Below, one piece after another: positions 4,669-43,101 of a stretch of DNA of 43,101 bases; within the stretch, counting starts at the first letter, position 1, and every line of letters starts with the position of its first letter. The stretch lies in the NCBI GenBank assembly GCA_014728225.1, contig WJLX01000116.1, forward strand, positions 1 to 43,101, in the 5' to 3' direction. The notes under the pieces were generated by a model. That model worked only from the letters and a program-made list of their open reading frames with translations, was not told the origin of the DNA and made no database searches. The position numbers and the translations under genes are program-made. Source of the DNA: Candidatus Coatesbacteria bacterium (GTDB lineage: Bacteria > RBG-13-66-14).

Positions 4669-4733
4669 GGCGCGGTTCTTGCCCGAGGTTTTCGCTCCCC
4701 GAAAACCTCGGCTCGCAAGAACCGTGACGCCGC
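4669..4733. repeat. Short variable-stem palindromic element R2
   Basis: Outer arms GCGCGGTTCTTGC and GCAAGAACCGTGACGC enclose an 11-bp inner stem CGAGGTTTTCG (4684-4694) with CGAAAACCTCG (4700-4710), loop CTCCC. The stem sequence is unlike that of any other copy. Confidence 0.75.
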
Positions 4734-4765: not shown

Positions 4766-4826
4766 CGGCACGGTTCTTGCATTCGCGGCGGACCTGTCGG
4801 TCCGCCGCGGCAAGAACGCGCGCCGG
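4766..4826. repeat. Short variable-stem palindromic element R3
   Basis: Outer arm GGCACGGTTCTTGC (4767-4780) faces GCAAGAAC (4810-4817). The inner stem CGCGGCGGACC (4784-4794) pairs with GGTCCGCCGCG (4799-4809), loop TGTC. It lies 33 nt from R2, so two family members sit side by side in this 440-nt gene-free interval (4523-4964). Confidence 0.75.
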
Positions 4827-14182: not shown

Positions 14183-15169
14183 ATGCTCGAGGGTTCACTC
14201 AGCTCCATCGCCCTGGGCTCCGTGTTCCAGCACATCATCGATCAGGGCCTCACCGGCCGCCTGACCATCGAGGCGCCCGACGAGACGCTGAACTACTATT
14301 TCGACCGCGGCAAACTGCTCAACGCCACCGAAGACCCCGAAGAAAACGACTCCCGGGGCCTCTTCGACCGCATCAAAGGCTCCTTTCACTTCGACAGCGC
14401 CCAGGACGTCGACGTCAAGAACAAAGCCGAGCTGAGCACCTTCCGCTGGGTGATGGATCGCGCCGGTGAAACCACCAACGTCCGGGCCATGCAGTGGGTC
14501 CTGCTCTCGCCCTTCGCCATCCCCGTGAACACCGCCGTACCGATCGCCGAACTCAACGACGAGGAGATGCAGATCTCCGCCCTGATCGATGACGAACGCA
14601 CCATCGCCGACATCATCAAGGTCTCACCCCGCGACGAACTCAGCACCCTGCGCATCCTCTTCGGCTTCACCGTTGCCAACACCATCCGCCTGATCCGCAC
14701 CTTCGAGGTCGTACGCATCCTCTGCGGGATAATCGACGATTTCGTCACCGCCCTGGGCGGAACACGGATGACCGTCAACGGGGCCGAACGGATGTTCGGC
14801 AAGGTCTTGAGCGAAATGATCGTCGTCCACCCCCAACTCGAGTACCTTGAACTCGGCGGCAGCGAAGAAGCCCTCGGCCGCCTGCGCAGCCAGTTCAACC
14901 GCGCCGCCGTGGCGATGAAGATCATGGGCGACCTCCTCGAACGCTATTACAAGGCGATCATCGTCTTCCTCGACCCGCGCAAAGTCGAGGACATCCTGCG
15001 CAATATCGCCGATAACTACTTCTCCAAGCACCGCAGCCTGGTCAGCGAACTGCGACTCGACGACATGCTCGACCACATTATCAGCGAAAGCACTGAACGC
15101 GACCGCGAACAGCTCTGGGCCGATATCGACATGGCAGAGAACCGCAGCACGCTGATCCGCTGGAGCTAG
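14183..15169 (+). CDS. DUF4388 (PATAN)-domain protein
   Basis: 328-residue soluble protein. The N-terminal 100 residues match the DUF4388/PATAN pattern (LEGSLSSIALGSVFQHIID, then GRLTIEAPDETLNYYFDRGKL). This domain is common in two-component, gliding and polarity proteins and is thought to mediate protein interaction. The remainder is mostly helical; a central winged-helix-like stretch (ALIDDERTIADIIKVSP) resembles the DUF4388-associated region. No kinase or receiver domain is attached. GGAGG ribosome site 5 nt upstream. Stands alone with its own promoter and terminator. Probably regulatory, partner unknown. Confidence 0.78.
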   Translation: MLEGSLSSIALGSVFQHIIDQGLTGRLTIEAPDETLNYYFDRGKLLNATEDPEENDSRGLFDRIKGSFHFDSAQDVDVKNKAELSTFRWVMDRAGETTNVRAMQWVLLSPFAIPVNTAVPIAELNDEEMQISALIDDERTIADIIKVSPRDELSTLRILFGFTVANTIRLIRTFEVVRILCGIIDDFVTALGGTRMTVNGAERMFGKVLSEMIVVHPQLEYLELGGSEEALGRLRSQFNRAAVAMKIMGDLLERYYKAIIVFLDPRKVEDILRNIADNYFSKHRSLVSELRLDDMLDHIISESTERDREQLWADIDMAENRSTLIRWS

Positions 15170-15271: not shown

Positions 15272-15462
15272 GGCCGACCGTTGAAAAATACCGGCCGCCG
15301 ACGAGCCTACCGCCGACGACAGGCCGGAACCGGCACGGTTTTTGCGGAGGCGAACCGTTGCCCGTGCTCCAAGGGTCGCCGAGATGCAAAAACCGTGCCG
15401 GTTCCGGCCGCCGAGCCCCCGGGACGGGCCAAACCGCCGTTGACCTTTTTCAACGGTCGGCC
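15272..15462. repeat. Nested palindromic element A (191 bp)
   Basis: Outer arms of 17 bp, GGCCGACCGTTGAAAAA (15272-15288), pair perfectly with 15446-15462. Inner arms of 24 bp (15322-15345, starting GGCCGGAACCGGCACGG) pair perfectly with 15386-15409. The centre 15346-15385 is a conserved hairpin (GGAGGCGAACCGTTG to CCAAGGGTCGCCGAG, one mismatch unique to this copy). It fills most of the gene-free interval 15170-15509. Confidence 0.9.
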
Positions 15463-16550: not shown

Positions 16551-16609
16551 GGCGTCACGGTTCTTGCAGGCCGAGTTTGACGGGTCAAACTCGGCGCAAG
16601 AACCGCGCC
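16551..16609. repeat. Short variable-stem palindromic element R4 (reverse orientation)
   Basis: GTCACGGTTCTTGC (16554-16567) faces GCAAGAACCGCGCC (16596-16609). The inner stem GCCGAGTTTGA (16570-16580) pairs perfectly with TCAAACTCGGC (16585-16595), loop CGGG. The CGTGAC end lies on the left here, so this copy is inverted relative to R1, R2, R5 and R6. The rest of 16610-16773 shows nothing recognisable. Confidence 0.75.
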
Positions 16610-24480: not shown

Positions 24481-24557
24481 CCGGGCCCGGCGCGGTTGTT
24501 GCCCGCCGAACTCCCGACCGGGAGGTCGGCGGTGAGCAAGAACCGTGACGGGCCCGG
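24481..24557. repeat. Short variable-stem palindromic element R5
   Basis: Long outer arms: CCGGGCCCGGCGCGGTTGTTGC type (24481-24502) faces GCAAGAACCGTGACGGGCCCGG type (24536-24557) with few mismatches. The inner stem CCGCCGA-A-CTCCCG pairs with CGGGAG-G-TCGGCGG (one mismatch). It lies 13 nt after the rarA stop (minus). Confidence 0.75.
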
Positions 24558-29305: not shown

Positions 29306-29920
29306 ATGCTTTTCCCCGCCGAGGATAGAGCGGGCATCCGCGCCGGCAGGATTACCGTGGTCTTCCGACAATGGAGCAAGCCCAAGGTAACCGCCGGCAA
29401 GGTCTACGATGCGCCCTACCTCGGGCGGATCAAGATCCGCAGCGTCTCGGTCATCCCCCTGGGCGAAGTCACCGCCGCCGATGCCCGCGCCGCCGGCGCC
29501 GCCTCCCTGTTCGACTTCTTCGAAAAGTTCCGCAGCCGCTTCCCCGACTGCGACCTCGACACCACCCAGGTCGTCCGCATCCGCTTCCGCTACCTGGGTA
29601 AGAGCGACAAGGAAGAGGAAAAGCCGCCCCATCCGGCCCTGGTGTTGGCCCGAGCCAAACTGATGGAAGAAACGGACCGCCGGGCCCGAACCGGACCCTG
29701 GACCCAACGCTACCTCGAAACCCTCGGCCTCTACGGCGAGCTGTTCTCCTCCGAACTGGCGGACTGTCTCGAACACACCCCGGATCGGATCAAGAAACGC
29801 ATGGGCGTACTGCGTAAGCAGGGCCTGGTCACCAGCACCCCCGAAGGCTACTCCCTGACCCGCCTGGGCGAGATGGTCTGGAAATTCCTCGACGACCTCA
29901 AGGTCCGTCAGGGCGCCTGA
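29306..29920 (+). CDS. ASCH-like domain protein with C-terminal winged helix
   Basis: 204 residues from the ATG at 29306, preceded by AAGGGGGG. Residues about 8-110 resemble an ASCH/PUA-like RNA-binding domain: RAGRITVVFRQWSKPKVTAGKVYDAPYLGRIKIRSVSVIPLGEVTAADARAAG. The C-terminal 70 residues form a winged helix (LYGELFSSELADCLEHTPDRIKKRMGVLRKQGLVTSTPEGYSLTRLGEMVW). A combined RNA/nucleotide sensor and DNA-binding regulator is plausible, inferred from domains only. It stands alone with its own promoter. The first 43 in-frame residues upstream are excluded because promoter and leader occupy them. Confidence 0.8.
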   Translation: MLFPAEDRAGIRAGRITVVFRQWSKPKVTAGKVYDAPYLGRIKIRSVSVIPLGEVTAADARAAGAASLFDFFEKFRSRFPDCDLDTTQVVRIRFRYLGKSDKEEEKPPHPALVLARAKLMEETDRRARTGPWTQRYLETLGLYGELFSSELADCLEHTPDRIKKRMGVLRKQGLVTSTPEGYSLTRLGEMVWKFLDDLKVRQGA

Positions 29921-30084: not shown

Positions 30085-30270
30085 GCTGCGCAAAACAGCC
30101 GCCGATGACGGGTGCCACTCACGCCAACCCCGCCGCCGGAACCGGCACGGTTTTTGCATCTCGGCGACCGTTGGAACGTTGGCAACGGTCCGCCTCCGCA
30201 AAAACCGTGCCGGTTCCGGCGGCGCCTGGGTGCGACTATCGCCTATCCTCAGGTGGCTGTTTTGCGCAGC
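30085..30270. repeat. Nested palindromic element B (186 bp)
   Basis: Outer arms GCTGCGCAAAACAGCC (30085-30100) and GGCTGTTTTGCGCAGC (30255-30270), 16 bp perfect. Inner arms of 27 bp (30131-30157 with 30198-30224), perfect. The central hairpin is in reverse orientation compared with A, C, D and E (GCATCTCGGCGACCGTTG...CAACGGTCCGCCTCCGC). The outer arm sequence differs from the GAAAAACAG type of A, C and D but still pairs. The rest of 29921-30084 shows no gene. Confidence 0.9.
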
Positions 30271-30318
30271 GCGTTGCTCCGTTCCGGCGGGCGACGTTAT
30301 CGTCAACGTCGCCGAGCG

Positions 30319-30343
30319 AAAAACGGCCCCGAGGGGCCGTTTT
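30319..30343. terminator. Bidirectional terminator
   Basis: AAAACGGCCCC, GA, GGGGCCGTTTT. Between the convergent ASCH gene (plus) and the 30368 gene (minus). Confidence 0.8.
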
Positions 30344-30367
30344 CGTTTCGCCGGCGTCCAGTCGTCC

Positions 30368-30880
30368 TTATGTTCCGGGTTCCCAGCGCCAGACGTTGTA
30401 GCCGGCGATTTCTTCCCCCCGCCAGATGAAGCCCGTGGAAGATCGATCAGCCGGGTGTTGAGGGGCGACCGTTTTGCTGATAACCTGGCGTTCGATCTCC
30501 AGCTCGAGCTCATCCAGGGAACCGACGGGCTGGTTTTGCTGTAGTGCGATCTCAGCCCCCCAGTCCTTGGCGGTGGGGAAGATGATCAGACGGAAGTGAT
30601 AGCGACCGTCCAGTTCGTAATAATCGTCGATCGGGATGGTGACACTGTGGTCGCCGTCGACCAGCAGGCAGCTCAGGTAGCCGTCGGCCGCCGTCGAACC
30701 CTCGATGATCCATAGGGGCCGGCCGTCGTTTTCCAGCTCTTCGGTCAGCTCTTCGATGCCGACGATCTCCACCTCGAAGGTGTCCCGGGCCTGGGCCTGG
30801 GAATCGCCGAAGTTGAGCCAACTGGCGGCCAGCACCAGGGCGGTCAATGAGAAAACGATGATGACGGACTTGGGTTTCAC
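30368..30880 (-). CDS. Secreted or membrane-anchored protein of unknown function
   Basis: 170 residues from a GTG at 30880. The N-terminal MKPKSVIIVFSLTALVLAAS is a signal peptide or single anchor. The mature part starts acidic (RDTFEVEIVGIEELTEELENDG), then shows strands (PLWIIEGSTAADGYLSCLLVDGDHSVTIPIDDYYELDGRYHFRLIIFPT), and ends in an uncharacterised tail (GFIWRGEEIAGYNVWRWEPG). I recognise no family. A possible promoter (TTGGTG, 17 nt, TACTAT) precedes it. The ribosome site is weak. Confidence 0.7.
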   Translation of the reverse strand: MKPKSVIIVFSLTALVLAASWLNFGDSQAQARDTFEVEIVGIEELTEELENDGRPLWIIEGSTAADGYLSCLLVDGDHSVTIPIDDYYELDGRYHFRLIIFPTAKDWGAEIALQQNQPVGSLDELELEIERQVISKTVAPQHPADRSSTGFIWRGEEIAGYNVWRWEPGT

Positions 30881-31124
30881 CGCGAAGCCTTTGTTGTCGC
30901 GTGTTCACAGCTAATAGTAGCAAAAAGTGTGCCAAACACCAACAAATAATCGTAAGACCCGTCATATCAGCAAGATAGGGAACAAGGCGTTCCGAGGTAA
31001 GGAGTCTCGACACGCAGCATACGGGGAATAATGTAACAAATCCGGACTTGGCAGGTGAACTTTTATGTGCTAGCCTACTTGCCGTCCAAGGCCAACCACC
31101 CCGCTTACTGGTAAGGAGGGCGCT

Positions 31125-32237
31125 ATGGCCCGCGCCACCGTCGCCGTCGTCAAGACCAAGCCCGAAACCGTCATCGAGGACACCGCCCGGGCGATGCGCC
31201 TCGCCGAGTACGAACAGGCCCTGCCGCCGGGTAAGACGACCATCCTCAAAGACAACATCTCCTGGCACCTGCCGATGCCCTCGGCCAACACCACCCCCTG
31301 GCAGCTCGAGGGCGTCGTCAAGGCCATGCGGTCCAGCGAGGGCCGCGGCGACCTGGTGGCCGTCGAGAACAAGACCGTGGTCACCGTCGCCGAGAAGGGC
31401 GACGTCTACAACAAGTACCGCCCGCTGTACGAGAAGTACGATATCCCCCTGCTGTTCAACTTCCGCAGCGACCACATGACCTGGAAGATCTACGAGCCCA
31501 AGGCCGAGATGCTGGTCCTCGACCGCATCTTCCCCGAGGGCATCCGTATCCCCGATTACTTCCACGGCAAGAACATCATCCACCTGCCCACGGTCAAGTG
31601 CCACATCTACACCACCACCACCGGGGCGATGAAGAACGCCTTCGGCGGCCTGTTGGCCACCCGGCGCCACTACACTCACTCCTGGATCCACAAGACCCTC
31701 GTCGATCTCCTGGCCATTCAGCGGGAAATCCACCCCGGCCTGTTCTGCGTGATGGACGGCACCACCGTCGGTAACGGTCCCGGGCCGCGGACCCTGATCC
31801 CCGTGCGCAAGGACCTGATGCTGGCCTCGGCCGACCAGACCGCCATCGACGCCGTGGCCGCCAAGATGATGGGCTTCGAGCCCCTCGAGCTCGAGTACAT
31901 CCGCCTGGCCCACGAGCGCGGCCTGGGCACCGGCCGCCTCGACGAGATGAACATCGTCGGCGACGTCGACGTCGAACAGGAAAGCTGGGGCTTCCAGGTC
32001 GGCGACAACCTGGCCTCGACCGCCGGGGACTTCATCTGGTTCGGACCGCTGCGCCCGATCCAGAAGCTGTTCTTCCACACACCCCTGGTGTCGGTCTTCG
32101 TCGCCGCCAGCGATTTCTACCACGACACCTTCTGGTGGAACCTCAAGGGCGCCAAGGTGTATCGCAACTGGCTCGACGAGTCCCCCTGGGGTCATTTGTT
32201 CGAGAAGTACGAACCGCACTTCGCGAGGGAGAGGTAA
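31125..32237 (+). CDS. DUF362-domain protein
   Basis: 370 residues, the usual DUF362 length without an attached ferredoxin domain. The family core is visible: LPPGKTTILKDNISWHLP near the start, NIIHLPTVKCHIYTTTTGAMKNAFGGLL at about 150-178, and SADQTAIDAVAAKMMGFEPLELEYIRLAHERGLG at about 227-260. DUF362 proteins are widespread in anaerobes and often sit near iron-sulfur proteins, but their reaction is unknown. ATG after AAGGAGG. A possible promoter (TTGGCA, 17 nt, TAGCCT near 31050-31080) lies in the leader. It is followed by a terminator shared with the convergent small gene. Confidence 0.85.
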   Translation: MARATVAVVKTKPETVIEDTARAMRLAEYEQALPPGKTTILKDNISWHLPMPSANTTPWQLEGVVKAMRSSEGRGDLVAVENKTVVTVAEKGDVYNKYRPLYEKYDIPLLFNFRSDHMTWKIYEPKAEMLVLDRIFPEGIRIPDYFHGKNIIHLPTVKCHIYTTTTGAMKNAFGGLLATRRHYTHSWIHKTLVDLLAIQREIHPGLFCVMDGTTVGNGPGPRTLIPVRKDLMLASADQTAIDAVAAKMMGFEPLELEYIRLAHERGLGTGRLDEMNIVGDVDVEQESWGFQVGDNLASTAGDFIWFGPLRPIQKLFFHTPLVSVFVAASDFYHDTFWWNLKGAKVYRNWLDESPWGHLFEKYEPHFARER

Positions 32238-32589: not shown

Positions 32590-32777
32590 TGAAAAACAGC
32601 CCCCGGCATTCCCGCTACAATGCAGCCTGCAACAGCGCCGGAACTGGCACGGTTTTTGCGGAGGCGGACCGTTATCTTAGTTCTAACGGTCGCCGAGATG
32701 CAAAAACCGTGCCAGTTCCGGCGTCCGTTAACTATGACTCCCCGGTGGAGCTCGGGGGGTGGGGGGGCTGTTTTTCA
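32590..32777. repeat. Nested palindromic element C (188 bp) with compensatory changes
   Basis: Outer arms TGAAAAACAGCCCCC (32590-32604) and GGGGGCTGTTTTTCA (32763-32777), 15 bp perfect. Inner arms of 24 bp (32636-32659 with 32700-32723) carry GGAACTGGC/GCCAGTTCC where other copies have GGAACCGGC/GCCGGTTCC: both arms changed together. The central stem also shows a paired change (GTTA/TAAC instead of GTTG/CAAC). The AT-rich remainder 32486-32589 shows no gene. Confidence 0.9.
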
Positions 32778-32895: not shown

Positions 32896-33516
32896 ATGAC
32901 CAAGCGCGACACCAGCCATCTGCGGAACCTCTTTTAGGATCCGAAGCGCGCCCGGGCCTACGGCCGGCGCCCGGCCAGGCGCAACGCCCGCCTGGGGCGC
33001 TACTACGCCGAGTACCTGAAAACGAGGGTGGACTACCGGGGCGGGCCCATTCTGGACGCCGGCTGCTGCGGCGGCGAGACCCTGATCGAGCTGGTTAAGG
33101 CCTTCCCACGGAGCAAGCTGGCGGGGGTGGACCTTTCCGAAGAGCTGCTGGAGCTGGCCCGGAGTCGGGCGGAGGAGGAGGGGTTGGCGCAGCGGATCGA
33201 CTTCCGCCGGGCCGACGTCACCGCGCTGCCCTTCCCCGACGACCAGTTCGAGTTCGTCCTCAGCCAGGACATGCTCCAGGTGGTGCTGGACGCCGCGGCC
33301 CTGGTCGACGAGCTGGCGCGGGTCAGCCGGTCGGAGGGTTTCTTCTACATCCGGGCGATCAAGCGTTCCTGGCTGGCGGCGCTGGTGCCGATCCTCAAGA
33401 TCGCCTTTTCGGCGGCGGAAGCCCGGGAACTGCTAAACGAAACCCGGCTGCGCCCCTGGCGGCTTGTCGAAAACACCTGGTACTACACGATCCTGCCGCA
33501 GGGCGCGCCGGAGTAG
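32896..33516 (+). pseudogene. SAM-dependent methyltransferase with an in-frame amber codon
   Basis: Reading from ATG 32896 gives MTKRDTSHLRNLF-stop-DPKRARAYGRRPARRNARLG, then YYAEYLKTRVDYRGGPILDAG and the class I methyltransferase core: LDAGCCGGETLI, AGVDLSEELLELAR, FRRADVTALPFPDDQFEFVLSQDML. The TAG is at 32935-32937. The full frame of about 206 residues would be a normal small methyltransferase, so the TAG looks like a mutation of a sense codon. A terminator ends 7 nt before the ATG and no ribosome site precedes it. A shorter product from GTG 33028 is possible but lacks the N-terminal helices. Substrate unknown. Confidence 0.7.
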
Positions 33517-35955: not shown

Positions 35956-36213
35956 ATGCGACAGCGACACGAAAAAGACGATAAAGCAAAAGCCCGCCGC
36001 AGCGGACTGGCGGCCTTCGCCGCCCAACCGTTGATGGGCCTGTTGCTGTTGCTGGTGATCGCCGGAGCCCTGACCGTGGTTTTCGCCGTTCGGCCCCTGG
36101 TGGGCTGGCTGGCCCTGGGCGTCGTCGTCGCCTTCATCGTCGTCCGCCTGCTGCGTTACCTGCGGTGGCGGCGGCGCGAGGGCGGCTCCGCCGACGGCTC
36201 CTCCCCCTCCTGA
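35956..36213 (+). CDS. Small two-helix membrane protein
   Basis: 85 residues from ATG 35956. Starts MRQRHEKDDKAKARRSGLAA, a basic cytoplasmic end, then two membrane segments (LMGLLLLLVIAGALTVVFAV and LVGWLALGVVVAFIVVRLL), then a basic tail. An upstream ATG at 35872 would add 28 residues without family support; the shorter start is preferred but not proven. The 3' end overlaps the convergent 36156 gene by 58 nt. Unknown function. Confidence 0.6.
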   Translation: MRQRHEKDDKAKARRSGLAAFAAQPLMGLLLLLVIAGALTVVFAVRPLVGWLALGVVVAFIVVRLLRYLRWRRREGGSADGSSPS

Positions 36214-36740
36214 GCACCCTCCTCGAAGTCGCCCCCCTCACCGCGCAGCCGCCGGCGCGTCTCCAACACGAAGCGCAGCACCGCCGTCCCCGAAACCTGC
36301 TCCGGAAACCTCAGATCCAGCTTGCCACCCAGTTCGAGCAGCACCTCCAGACGGTAGGCGACGCGGTCCGTGTCCTTGCGCAGATAGAGCACCAACAGCG
36401 AGACCACCACCGTCACCACGCCGAGCACGAAACCCCAGCGACCCGGCAGCTCCACCAGCCAACTGAAGGCCAGCAGGCCGATCAGCACCAGCATCGCCGC
36501 CACCAGGCGCCAGGGACCGAAGACCAGCCGCGAGCGCATCCGCACGCTGCGCACCTGGGACAGCAACAGCACCCGCCATCCCGTCTCCAGGCCGAAAAGG
36601 TGCAGCTCCTCGCCGGCCAAAACAGCGTCGGGCTCCGCGGTGTCCAGGTTGACCTCGCCGCCGTAATCCCGCCGCAGGCTGCGCGCCGACGGCGGAAAAT
36701 CAGCGGGAAAACGGGGCGGACTGTCGAACTGCGGGTTCAT
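36156..36740 (-). CDS. Membrane protein of unknown function
   Basis: 194 residues. The soluble N-terminal 70 residues contain strands (VNLDTAEPDAVLAGEELHLFGLETGWRVLLLSQVRSVRMRSRL), two membrane segments follow at about 80-120 (LVAAMLVLIGLLAFSWLVEL and WGFVLGVVTVVVSLLVLYL), then a cytoplasmic part with strands (YRLEVLLELGGKLDLRFPEQVSG) and an acidic/basic tail. The shape resembles bacterial PH-like/DUF304 membrane proteins, but I do not assign the family. Its 3' end overlaps the 35956 gene. Confidence 0.72.
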   Translation of the reverse strand: MNPQFDSPPRFPADFPPSARSLRRDYGGEVNLDTAEPDAVLAGEELHLFGLETGWRVLLLSQVRSVRMRSRLVFGPWRLVAAMLVLIGLLAFSWLVELPGRWGFVLGVVTVVVSLLVLYLRKDTDRVAYRLEVLLELGGKLDLRFPEQVSGTAVLRFVLETRRRLRGEGGDFEEGAQEGEEPSAEPPSRRRHRR

Positions 36741-37944: not shown

Positions 37945-38136
37945 CGACCGTTGAAAAACAGTCCCCCGGCGACGGCGACCCGCGCGACGAGATCGGGCCG
38001 CCGGAACCGGCACGGTTTTTGCGGAGGCGAACCGTTGTCATCGCTCTCAACGGTCGCCGAGATGCAAAAACCGTGCCGGTTCCGGCGCCGCGAGCTTGGG
38101 CGGGAACGCTTTTTGGGGACTGTTTTTAAACGGTCG
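37945..38136. repeat. Nested palindromic element D (192 bp)
   Basis: Outer arms of 22 bp with one mismatch: CGACCGTTGAAAAACAGTCC start (37945) and its complement ending 38136. Inner arms 37999-38022 and 38064-38087, 24 bp perfect. The central hairpin GGCGAACCGTTGTCATCGCT to CTCAACGGTCGCCGAGATGC is the conserved type. It lies between the divergent 37467 gene and the EamA genes. Confidence 0.9.
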
Positions 38137-38236: not shown

Positions 38237-39166
38237 ATGCCGAAAAGCGACAAACAGCCCTCGCGTCTGGCGGCCCTGGCGGTCATGGCCGGAGTGACCC
38301 TGGTCTGGAGCGGGGCCTTCGCCGCGCTCAAATTCGGTCTGGGAACGCTGAGCCCCGGTGCCGCCCTGCTGTTGCGCTTCCTGCCGGTCTGGCTGCTCAG
38401 CGGGCTCTACCTGCTCAAGCGCCGTCGGGACTTCGCCGCCCTGGTCAAGGCCCGACCGCTGACGGTCATCGCCGCTTGTGTGTTGGGCACGGCGGGCTAC
38501 CACATGTTCCTGACCTTCGGCCTGCAGGGGGTCAGTTCGGCGACCTCGGCGCTGATCGTCTCCTGCGGGGCCCTGTTCACCTACATCATCTCGGTGTCGG
38601 TCAAGCTGGAGAAGCCGGTCCTGCGGCGCTTCATCGGTATCGTCCTGGCCTTGGGCGGGCTGTATCTGGTGCTGCGCTACGGTTCGGGCGCCGAGTTCGA
38701 CGCCCGCTACCTGGGCTTCGTCCTGCTGGTTTTCGGCGCCCCGCTTTCCTGGTCCAGCTACACGATCCTGGTCAAGAAGCTGACCGCCCGCGAGGAGACC
38801 GCCGACGTCAACCTGCTAACGGCGGCGACCTTCTTCATCGGCTCGCTGCCCTTCTTCGCCCTGATCGACGAAACCTTTTTCGCCGCTTTCAGCCAGCCGC
38901 TGACCCTGGTGCTGCTGCCGGGCTACCTCGGTCTGGCGGCCTCCCTGGGCGGCTACCTGGGCTGGAACTGGTCTCTCAAACGGGCCCACCCCAGCCAGGT
39001 GGCGGCATTTTTGACTTTGGTGCCCGTGCTGGCCCATCTGTGGGGCTACCTGTTCCTCGACGAGACGCTGACCTGGATGGCCGCCGTCGGCGGAACCTTC
39101 GTCCTGGCGGGCATCACCGTGGTCAATCTACGCAAGCGCAAGCAGCGGGCGGTGGTCGAGGGATGA
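38237..39166 (+). CDS. EamA/DMT-family transporter
   Basis: 309 residues, ten predicted membrane helices in two repeated five-helix halves, typical of the EamA (DUF6) drug/metabolite transporter superfamily. Features include VTLVWSGAFAALKFGLGTLSPGAALLLRFLPVW in helices 1-2, and TAHPSQVAAFLTLVPVLAHLWGYLFLDETL-like near the end. Substrate unknown; the family exports amino acids or other metabolites. Very short leader, so translation may depend on a leaderless start. The stop overlaps the next transporter by 4 nt (ATGA). Confidence 0.85.
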   Translation: MPKSDKQPSRLAALAVMAGVTLVWSGAFAALKFGLGTLSPGAALLLRFLPVWLLSGLYLLKRRRDFAALVKARPLTVIAACVLGTAGYHMFLTFGLQGVSSATSALIVSCGALFTYIISVSVKLEKPVLRRFIGIVLALGGLYLVLRYGSGAEFDARYLGFVLLVFGAPLSWSSYTILVKKLTAREETADVNLLTAATFFIGSLPFFALIDETFFAAFSQPLTLVLLPGYLGLAASLGGYLGWNWSLKRAHPSQVAAFLTLVPVLAHLWGYLFLDETLTWMAAVGGTFVLAGITVVNLRKRKQRAVVEG

Positions 39167-42984: not shown

Positions 42985-43101
42985 GGGCGAAAAACGACCC
43001 CGAAACACCGCGCAACGGCCGTTACCCGCCGCCGGAACCGGCACGGTTTTTGCGGAGGCGGACCGTTGCCAATGCTCCAACGGTCGCCGAGATGCAAAAA
43101 C
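42985..43101. repeat. Nested palindromic element E, cut by the window end
   Basis: The left outer region GGGCGAAAAACGACCCC, the inner left arm (about 43027-43053) and the whole central hairpin (GGAGGCGGACCGTTGCCAAT to CCAACGGTCGCCGAGATGC) are present. The right inner arm begins at GCAAAAAC where the window stops. Confidence 0.85.

Follow-up and report, generated by a model that had tools for sequence, protein, structure and literature searches.

Bacterial MITEs, such as the Correia and ERIC-type elements, are short, non-coding, intergenic sequences with inverted-repeat ends that are present in high copy number. REPINs, which depend on a RAYT transposase, consist of inverted conserved blocks that are extragenic, long-lived and present in hundreds of copies (PMC3116915, PMC8049555). 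Promoters of the sigma-54 -24/-12 type are recognized by GGCAC-N5-TTGC with GG-N10-GC spacing (PMC12316311, PMC4591121), the consensus being given as TGGCAC-N5-7-TTGC (PMC12316311), and the polymerase rests on them as a stable closed complex until it is remodelled by an activator (PMC7057263, PMC4591121). Template switching at hairpin arms has been documented as well: both arms change at the same time, remain perfect and show no wobble bias (PMC8794818). The palindromes that we describe here, from a Candidatus Coatesbacteria genome, are like MITEs in being short, non-coding and intergenic, with inverted-repeat ends, many copies, and presence or absence at orthologous sites. They differ from MITEs in their two nested inverted pairs, in outer arms that vary and yet pair, in unrelated spacers, in inner arms that match a sigma-factor site, and in being without a known partner transposase.

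The window, a stretch of 43,101 nucleotides, is the whole of contig C116 of the parent genome (G000; 2.96 Mb in 181 contigs, 96.8% complete). It holds five palindromes of the main family, whose coordinates, arm lengths and pairing are as given in an earlier sequence-only reading. Copy A (15272-15462, + strand) lies between tandem genes, 103 bp 3' of gene 14183-15169. Its left outer arm (15272-15288, + strand) is 100% paired over 17 bp with 15446-15462, and its inner arms, the left at 15322-15345 (+ strand) and the right at 15386-15409 (- strand), are 24 nt long and pair with zero mismatches. The left inner arm contains the sigma-54-like site GGCACGGTTTTTGC at 15332-15345, and the right one carries the TTGCA version of the site on the minus strand at 15386-15399. 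Copy B (30085-30270, - strand) lies between the convergent genes 29357-29920 and 30368-30880, with outer arms at 30085-30103 and 30252-30270 (19 nt, 95% paired), inner arms at 30131-30157 and 30198-30224 (27 nt, zero mismatches) and sigma-54-like sites at 30144-30157 (+) and 30198-30211 (-). A plain bidirectional, terminator-like hairpin, GAAAAACGGCCCC/GGGGCCGTTTTC, is found 36 bp from this copy, at 30306-30357. Between the tandem genes 31125-32237 and 33028-33516 lies copy C (32590-32777, + strand), whose outer arms at 32590-32604 and 32763-32777 are perfect over 15 nt (90% paired over 21 nt), whose inner arms at 32636-32659 and 32700-32723 are 24 nt long with zero mismatches, and whose sigma-54-like sites are at 32646-32659 (+) and 32700-32713 (-). 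Copy D (37945-38136, + strand) occupies a wide gap between the divergent genes 36156-36740 and 38237-39166; its outer arms (37945-37966 and 38115-38136) are 95% paired over 22 nt, its inner arms (37999-38022 and 38064-38087) are perfect over 24 nt inside a 33-nt pair of 91%, and its sites are at 38009-38022 (+) and 38064-38077 (-). Copy E (42985-43101, + strand) is cut by the contig end, so that it shows one site (43040-43053, +) and a right arm that starts at the last bases. The tandem setting of A and C, the convergent setting of B and the divergent setting of D agree with what had been read from the sequence. Folding of copy D as DNA gave z = -12.1, and the window has 22 occurrences of CACGGTTTTTGC at up to two mismatches (2.9 expected; maximum of 9 in 100 shuffles). 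The palindromes of the window are thus far beyond chance. We also observed an inner arm within 200 bp of 14 of the 86 sampled contig ends of G000, which points to assembly breaks at the palindromes, including the one that ends the window.

The sequence-only reading counted five copies, which is right for the main family in the window but a large undercount for the genome, which has about 250. The genome-wide search that it had called for was run and returned further copies: an exact search for CACGGTTTTTGC-N30..56-GCAAAAACCGTG found 236 inner pairs in G000 (reversed control, 0), and a relaxed search found 251. The genome of Candidatus Coatesbacteria Bin_537 (G001; WJMB01), from the same family but a different genus, has 135 strict and at least 156 relaxed inner pairs when the N4 positions are left free (controls, 0). 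A covariance model built on the inner part, with 150 candidates scored per genome so that high counts are lower bounds, gave at least 94 hits in G006, which represents a third genus of the family, 12 in G003, 9 in G005, 8 in G002 and 1 in G004. The same search of seven genomes from other families in the phylum returned zero hits. As far as sampled, the elements are confined to one family of Candidatus Coatesbacteria. The detailed analyses below draw on 136 copies in 1.25 Mb of G000 (42% of the genome) and 51 copies in 0.48 Mb of G001.

None of these 187 sampled copies lies in a predicted gene, at a coding density of 71-80%; genes were called by a simple codon-usage predictor rather than a standard tool. 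When gaps of 190 bp or more are sorted by the orientation of their genes, those with an element number 84 of 231 (tandem), 30 of 69 (convergent) and 14 of 78 (divergent) in G000, and 34 of 126, 9 of 19 and 2 of 30, respectively, in G001. Divergent gaps are depleted (pooled p = 2.5e-5). The median distance from the core to the neighbouring gene is about 117 bp at gene ends and 176 bp at gene starts. Most copies thus sit a short way past the 3' end of a gene and not, as sigma-54 promoters do, upstream of a gene and directed to it. Element orientation has no clear relation to that of tandem genes (48/32 in G000, p = 0.09; 13/12 in G001).

Comparison of the two genomes points to movement of the elements. 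Across 126 conserved neighbouring gene pairs of G000 and G001, an element is present in both genomes in 3 gaps, in G000 only in 5 and in G001 only in 9. The gap behind rpoN measures about 300 bp with its element in G000, but 13 bp in G001 and 46 bp in G003, and the genes overlap in G012; these sizes indicate an insertion in G000. In three G006 copies (L241, L250 and L256), the palindrome sits inside a non-coding unit of about 430 bp that is common to them and ends in the terminal inverted repeats GGGATCATCACCCGTTTATGAAC / GTTCATGATCGGTGATTATCCC. The family therefore comprises short non-coding units with inverted-repeat ends and many copies, and it has both occupied and empty orthologous sites, as MITEs do. 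The earlier suggestion of a non-autonomous mobile element is borne out by the high copy number, the presence or absence in orthologous gaps, the genus-specific arms and the relative that bears terminal inverted repeats. Copies that resemble each other in their spacers were not encountered in G000, which suggests that movement in this genome is old. No clear direct repeat that could be a target-site duplication was seen at the outer arms. Among the open reading frames listed around nine G006 copies, which we read by eye, there was no autonomous copy or transposase, and no partner transposase was found near elements or among multi-copy proteins in the sampled 42% of G000. An identity as integron attC sites was also weighed; the copies form no cassette arrays and lie between housekeeping genes.

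Among known families, we compared the palindromes directly with REPINs, whose mover is a RAYT (Y1) transposase present in single copy. They resemble REPINs in having an inverted pair of conserved blocks of about 25 bp in 100-300 strictly extragenic copies. However, Y1_Tnp (PF01797) has 0 matches in G000 and G001 (97% and 99% complete), the element-rich genomes, and is present in nine other genomes of the phylum; moreover, the blocks, judged by eye, are not REP hairpins with a GTAG-type tag, and there is an extra outer palindrome. We reject this identity on the absence of Y1_Tnp from both genomes, and consider a REPIN-like origin very improbable.

The unit of about 190 bp in G000 consists of outer arms of about 20 bp, spacers of about 30 nt, inner arms of 22-29 bp and a small centre of 40-42 nt. 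The inner arms, which read CCGGAAC(C/T)GGCACGGTTTTTGC in G000 and GGC(G/T)TTGGCACGTTTCTTGC in G001, are separated by 40 or 41 nt in G000 and mostly by 43 nt in G001. Both genomes show the same asymmetry of the centre, with GGA after one arm and A(T/G)C after the other, and in both genera one arm has TTGCA; the other has TTGCG. Spacer similarity between copies is at background (score of 5.56 vs 5.35 for shuffled spacers). Outer arms in G000 have a GACCTTTGAAAAAC-like core that is common to many copies, and variable ends. That outer arms differ between copies and nonetheless pair within each, as had been read from the sequence, is confirmed by mean pairing scores of 19.0 within copies vs 9.0 across copies; in 71 out of 89 copies, the pairing of a copy's own outer arms exceeds the 99th percentile of cross-copy pairs. 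A second comparison gave 18.7 vs 9.2 in G000 and 16.2 vs 8.7 in G001. The outer-arm core GACCTTTGAAAA occurs inside elements in 35 of 37 instances, which makes the outer arms part of the element. We considered that the outer arms might be pre-existing terminators hit by an insertion of the inner part; this was rejected on the same distribution of the core and because T-runs are mostly absent from the G001 outer arms that we read.

Several copies depart from this anatomy. The copy at G000:C7:32427-32620 has perfect arms of 69 bp, spacer included, and looks as though one arm had overwritten its partner. Outer palindromes without an inner part, or with a collapsed one, occur at L103:16904, L103:23738 and L092:13956 in G000 and at L173:3349 in G001; all four are probably internal deletions, and those at L103:16904, L103:23738 and L173:3349 resemble such deletions more than they do empty targets. 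Two G001 variants (L149:12155-12255 and L150:7095-7198) have a centre of 73-75 nt and one arm that reads GGCTTTGGCACGTTTCTTGC, followed by AAAGCC in L150.

The location behind genes, together with paired stems that change on both sides, would also suit a family of structured RNAs or terminators that lies in 3' untranslated regions and is kept by RNA folding. Yet outer-arm mismatches counted in the direction of the host gene comprise 9 GT and 9 AC, and this lack of a G-U preference argues against selection at the RNA level and points to DNA. Counted in element orientation, GT/AC is 8/22 in G000 (p = 0.016) and reversed in G001 (10/5), which we do not count as evidence. A search of the window against Rfam at the gathering score returned tRNA only and no match to the palindromes. 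The inner sequence is invariant, copies also lie in divergent spaces, and ordinary terminator-like hairpins adjoin some copies. The proposal of a structured RNA in the sequence-only reading is thus not supported, in view of the Rfam result, the missing G-U excess and the lack of a clear orientation relative to genes, and we regard the RNA or terminator explanation as highly unlikely. Its statement that the palindromes are not simply terminators holds, as the G001 outer arms that we read mostly lack T-runs and 14 copies in G000 and 2 in G001 are in divergent gaps.

What the sequence-only reading did not contain, and what we consider the new part of this analysis, is the putative sigma-54 identity of the inner arms. 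Each inner arm in G000 and G001, on both sides of the copy, is GGCACG-N4-TTGC, the -24/-12 sequence of sigma-54 with its GG-N10-GC spacing. The arms match a sigma-54 site base for base, and each copy carries two such putative sites face to face, about 40 bp apart. The arm versions in three genera are GGCACG-GTTT-TTGC, GGCACG-TTTC-TTGC and GGCACA-GTTT-TTGC (GGCACGGTTTTTGC in G000, GGCACGTTTCTTGC in G001 and GGCACAGTTTTTGC in g4), with differences confined to N5 or to positions upstream of GG and with TGGCAC-N5-TTGC on at least one arm in each version. Nine sigma-54 positions and their exact spacing are thus fixed across three genera while neighbouring positions change. The motif GGCACGNNNNTTGC occurs 576 times in G000 and 384 times in G001 (3 and 4 in the reversed controls), whereas the other genomes of the phylum have 0-16 occurrences each. 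The encoded proteins include RpoN, which has a normal RpoN box (ARRTVAKYRKQMKI), and eight strong matches to activators. Ordinary, unpaired TTGGCAC-N5-TTGC(A/T) sites also occur in G000 and G001, 29-130 bp upstream of genes. In the window, a lone promoter of the sigma-54 type, TGGCACACTTTTTGC, is found at 30920-30934 (-), 39 bp upstream of gene 30368-30880 (-), the gene behind which copy B lies. In contrast to such promoters, the element sites are face-to-face pairs in perfect palindromes, number about 500 and lie behind genes instead of in front of them. Our literature searches for paired convergent sigma-54 palindromes found no report.

The likeness could be a coincidence with a sequence recognized by a transposase. 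The family would then be plainly MITE-like, with inner arms that serve as transposase recognition sequences and are conserved for transposition competence. This is consistent with the insertions at orthologous gaps, with the unit bearing terminal inverted repeats in G006, and with inner-arm conservation that reaches past the sigma-54 contacts (CCGGAAC upstream, GGAG/ATCTC downstream). Nearly every copy read in G006 has an extra base in one arm, which gives GG-N11-GC and leaves the consensus on the other arm only; the GG-N11-GC spacing should not be accepted by sigma-54. A second subfamily, shorter than the main one, fits this explanation too, as its arms are without the sigma-54 consensus. It has 15 copies per 1.25 Mb of G000, 0 in genes, and is absent from the G001 sample (0.48 Mb). 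Three copies are in the window: one at 4673-4724, with the core pair CGGTTCTTGC...GCAAGAACCG, a long central hairpin and arms that are not sigma-54 perfect, and near it a lone perfect arm, GGCACGGTTCTTGC, at 4767-4780; and two seen as core pairs at 16558-16605 and 24493-24545. The arms of most copies are GGCGCGGTT(C/G)TTGC and GTCACGGTT(C/G)TTGC, with the full sigma-54 consensus in neither; they usually differ in a fixed way (GGCGCGG vs GTCACGG), and the central hairpin is long, variable and well paired. Against coincidence, however, stand the nine sigma-54 positions kept at exact spacing while their neighbours change, the perfect arms despite saturated spacers, which are unlike those of a dead or slowly moving MITE, and the failure of the searches made to find a transposase in the element-rich genomes. 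We therefore regard a plain MITE with a coincidental motif as a possible but rather doubtful explanation.

Alternatively, the elements could be bidirectional sigma-54 promoters whose two sites, firing toward and beyond one another, would produce short RNAs or read into both neighbours in the presence of an activator, the outer arms being matched upstream activator sites. The consensus on both arms, outer arms that are kept equal and precede the sites by about 60-90 bp, and the preferred TTGCA on one arm in both genera are as such promoters would have them. But the other arm has TTGCG, the outer arms are too diverse from copy to copy to serve eight activators as sites, and the roughly 500 sites are far more than eight activators would need. 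Promoters are also at odds with copies that lie behind genes, that are rarer between divergent genes and that have no clear orientation relative to tandem genes, and we think this explanation improbable.

Our preferred explanation, which we hold with modest confidence, is a MITE-like, non-autonomous, dispersed DNA family whose members bear paired putative sites of the sigma-54 holoenzyme and may owe their retention to them. As the comparison of genomes indicates, copies arrived in intergenic spaces by insertion, for the most part 3' of genes, and each genus amplified its own arm version. The arms within a copy may then stay identical through template switching at the DNA level together with selection. 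N4 is identical in both arms in 106 out of 110 copies in G000 and 34 out of 34 in G001 (shuffled maxima, 98 and 27), although sigma-54 should ignore N4, which suggests that the palindrome as such is what is maintained. The 69-bp perfect arms at C7:32427 fit the copying of one arm over its partner. While template switching would account for covariation within copies, it would not explain why inner arms are alike from copy to copy; this calls for spread from a lineage master, selection, or both. Unlike in the documented hairpins (PMC8794818), template switching is proposed here as the maintenance process of a dispersed DNA element.

On the strength of the consensus, sigma-54 RNA polymerase would sit as a closed, inactive complex on one inner arm or on both, which we consider somewhat more probable than its opposite. 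More speculatively, a bound pair might stand between transcription units as an insulator or as a block in both directions. Such a role would explain both the conservation of the arms and the scarcity of copies between divergent genes; in E. coli, a test for a roadblock by sigma-54 bound within genes came out negative (PMC4591121), and we put the insulator forward as an unlikely step. Equally tentative is the wider idea of lineage-wide, face-to-face docking sites for sigma-54 behind genes, at which parked polymerases would serve as transcription insulators or domain boundaries, unrelated to gene activation.

If the inner arms do bind sigma-54, a selfish-looking repeat would have carried hundreds of sites to the ends of transcription units, which would amount to a new route for rewiring transcription or to a non-promoter role for sigma-54. 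Even without sigma-54, these are nested inverted repeats whose arms change together at the DNA level and whose spacers are saturated. One genome supplies about 250 natural replicates and the sister genera supply three arm versions, which makes the family a good test bed for the upkeep of palindromes by template switching.
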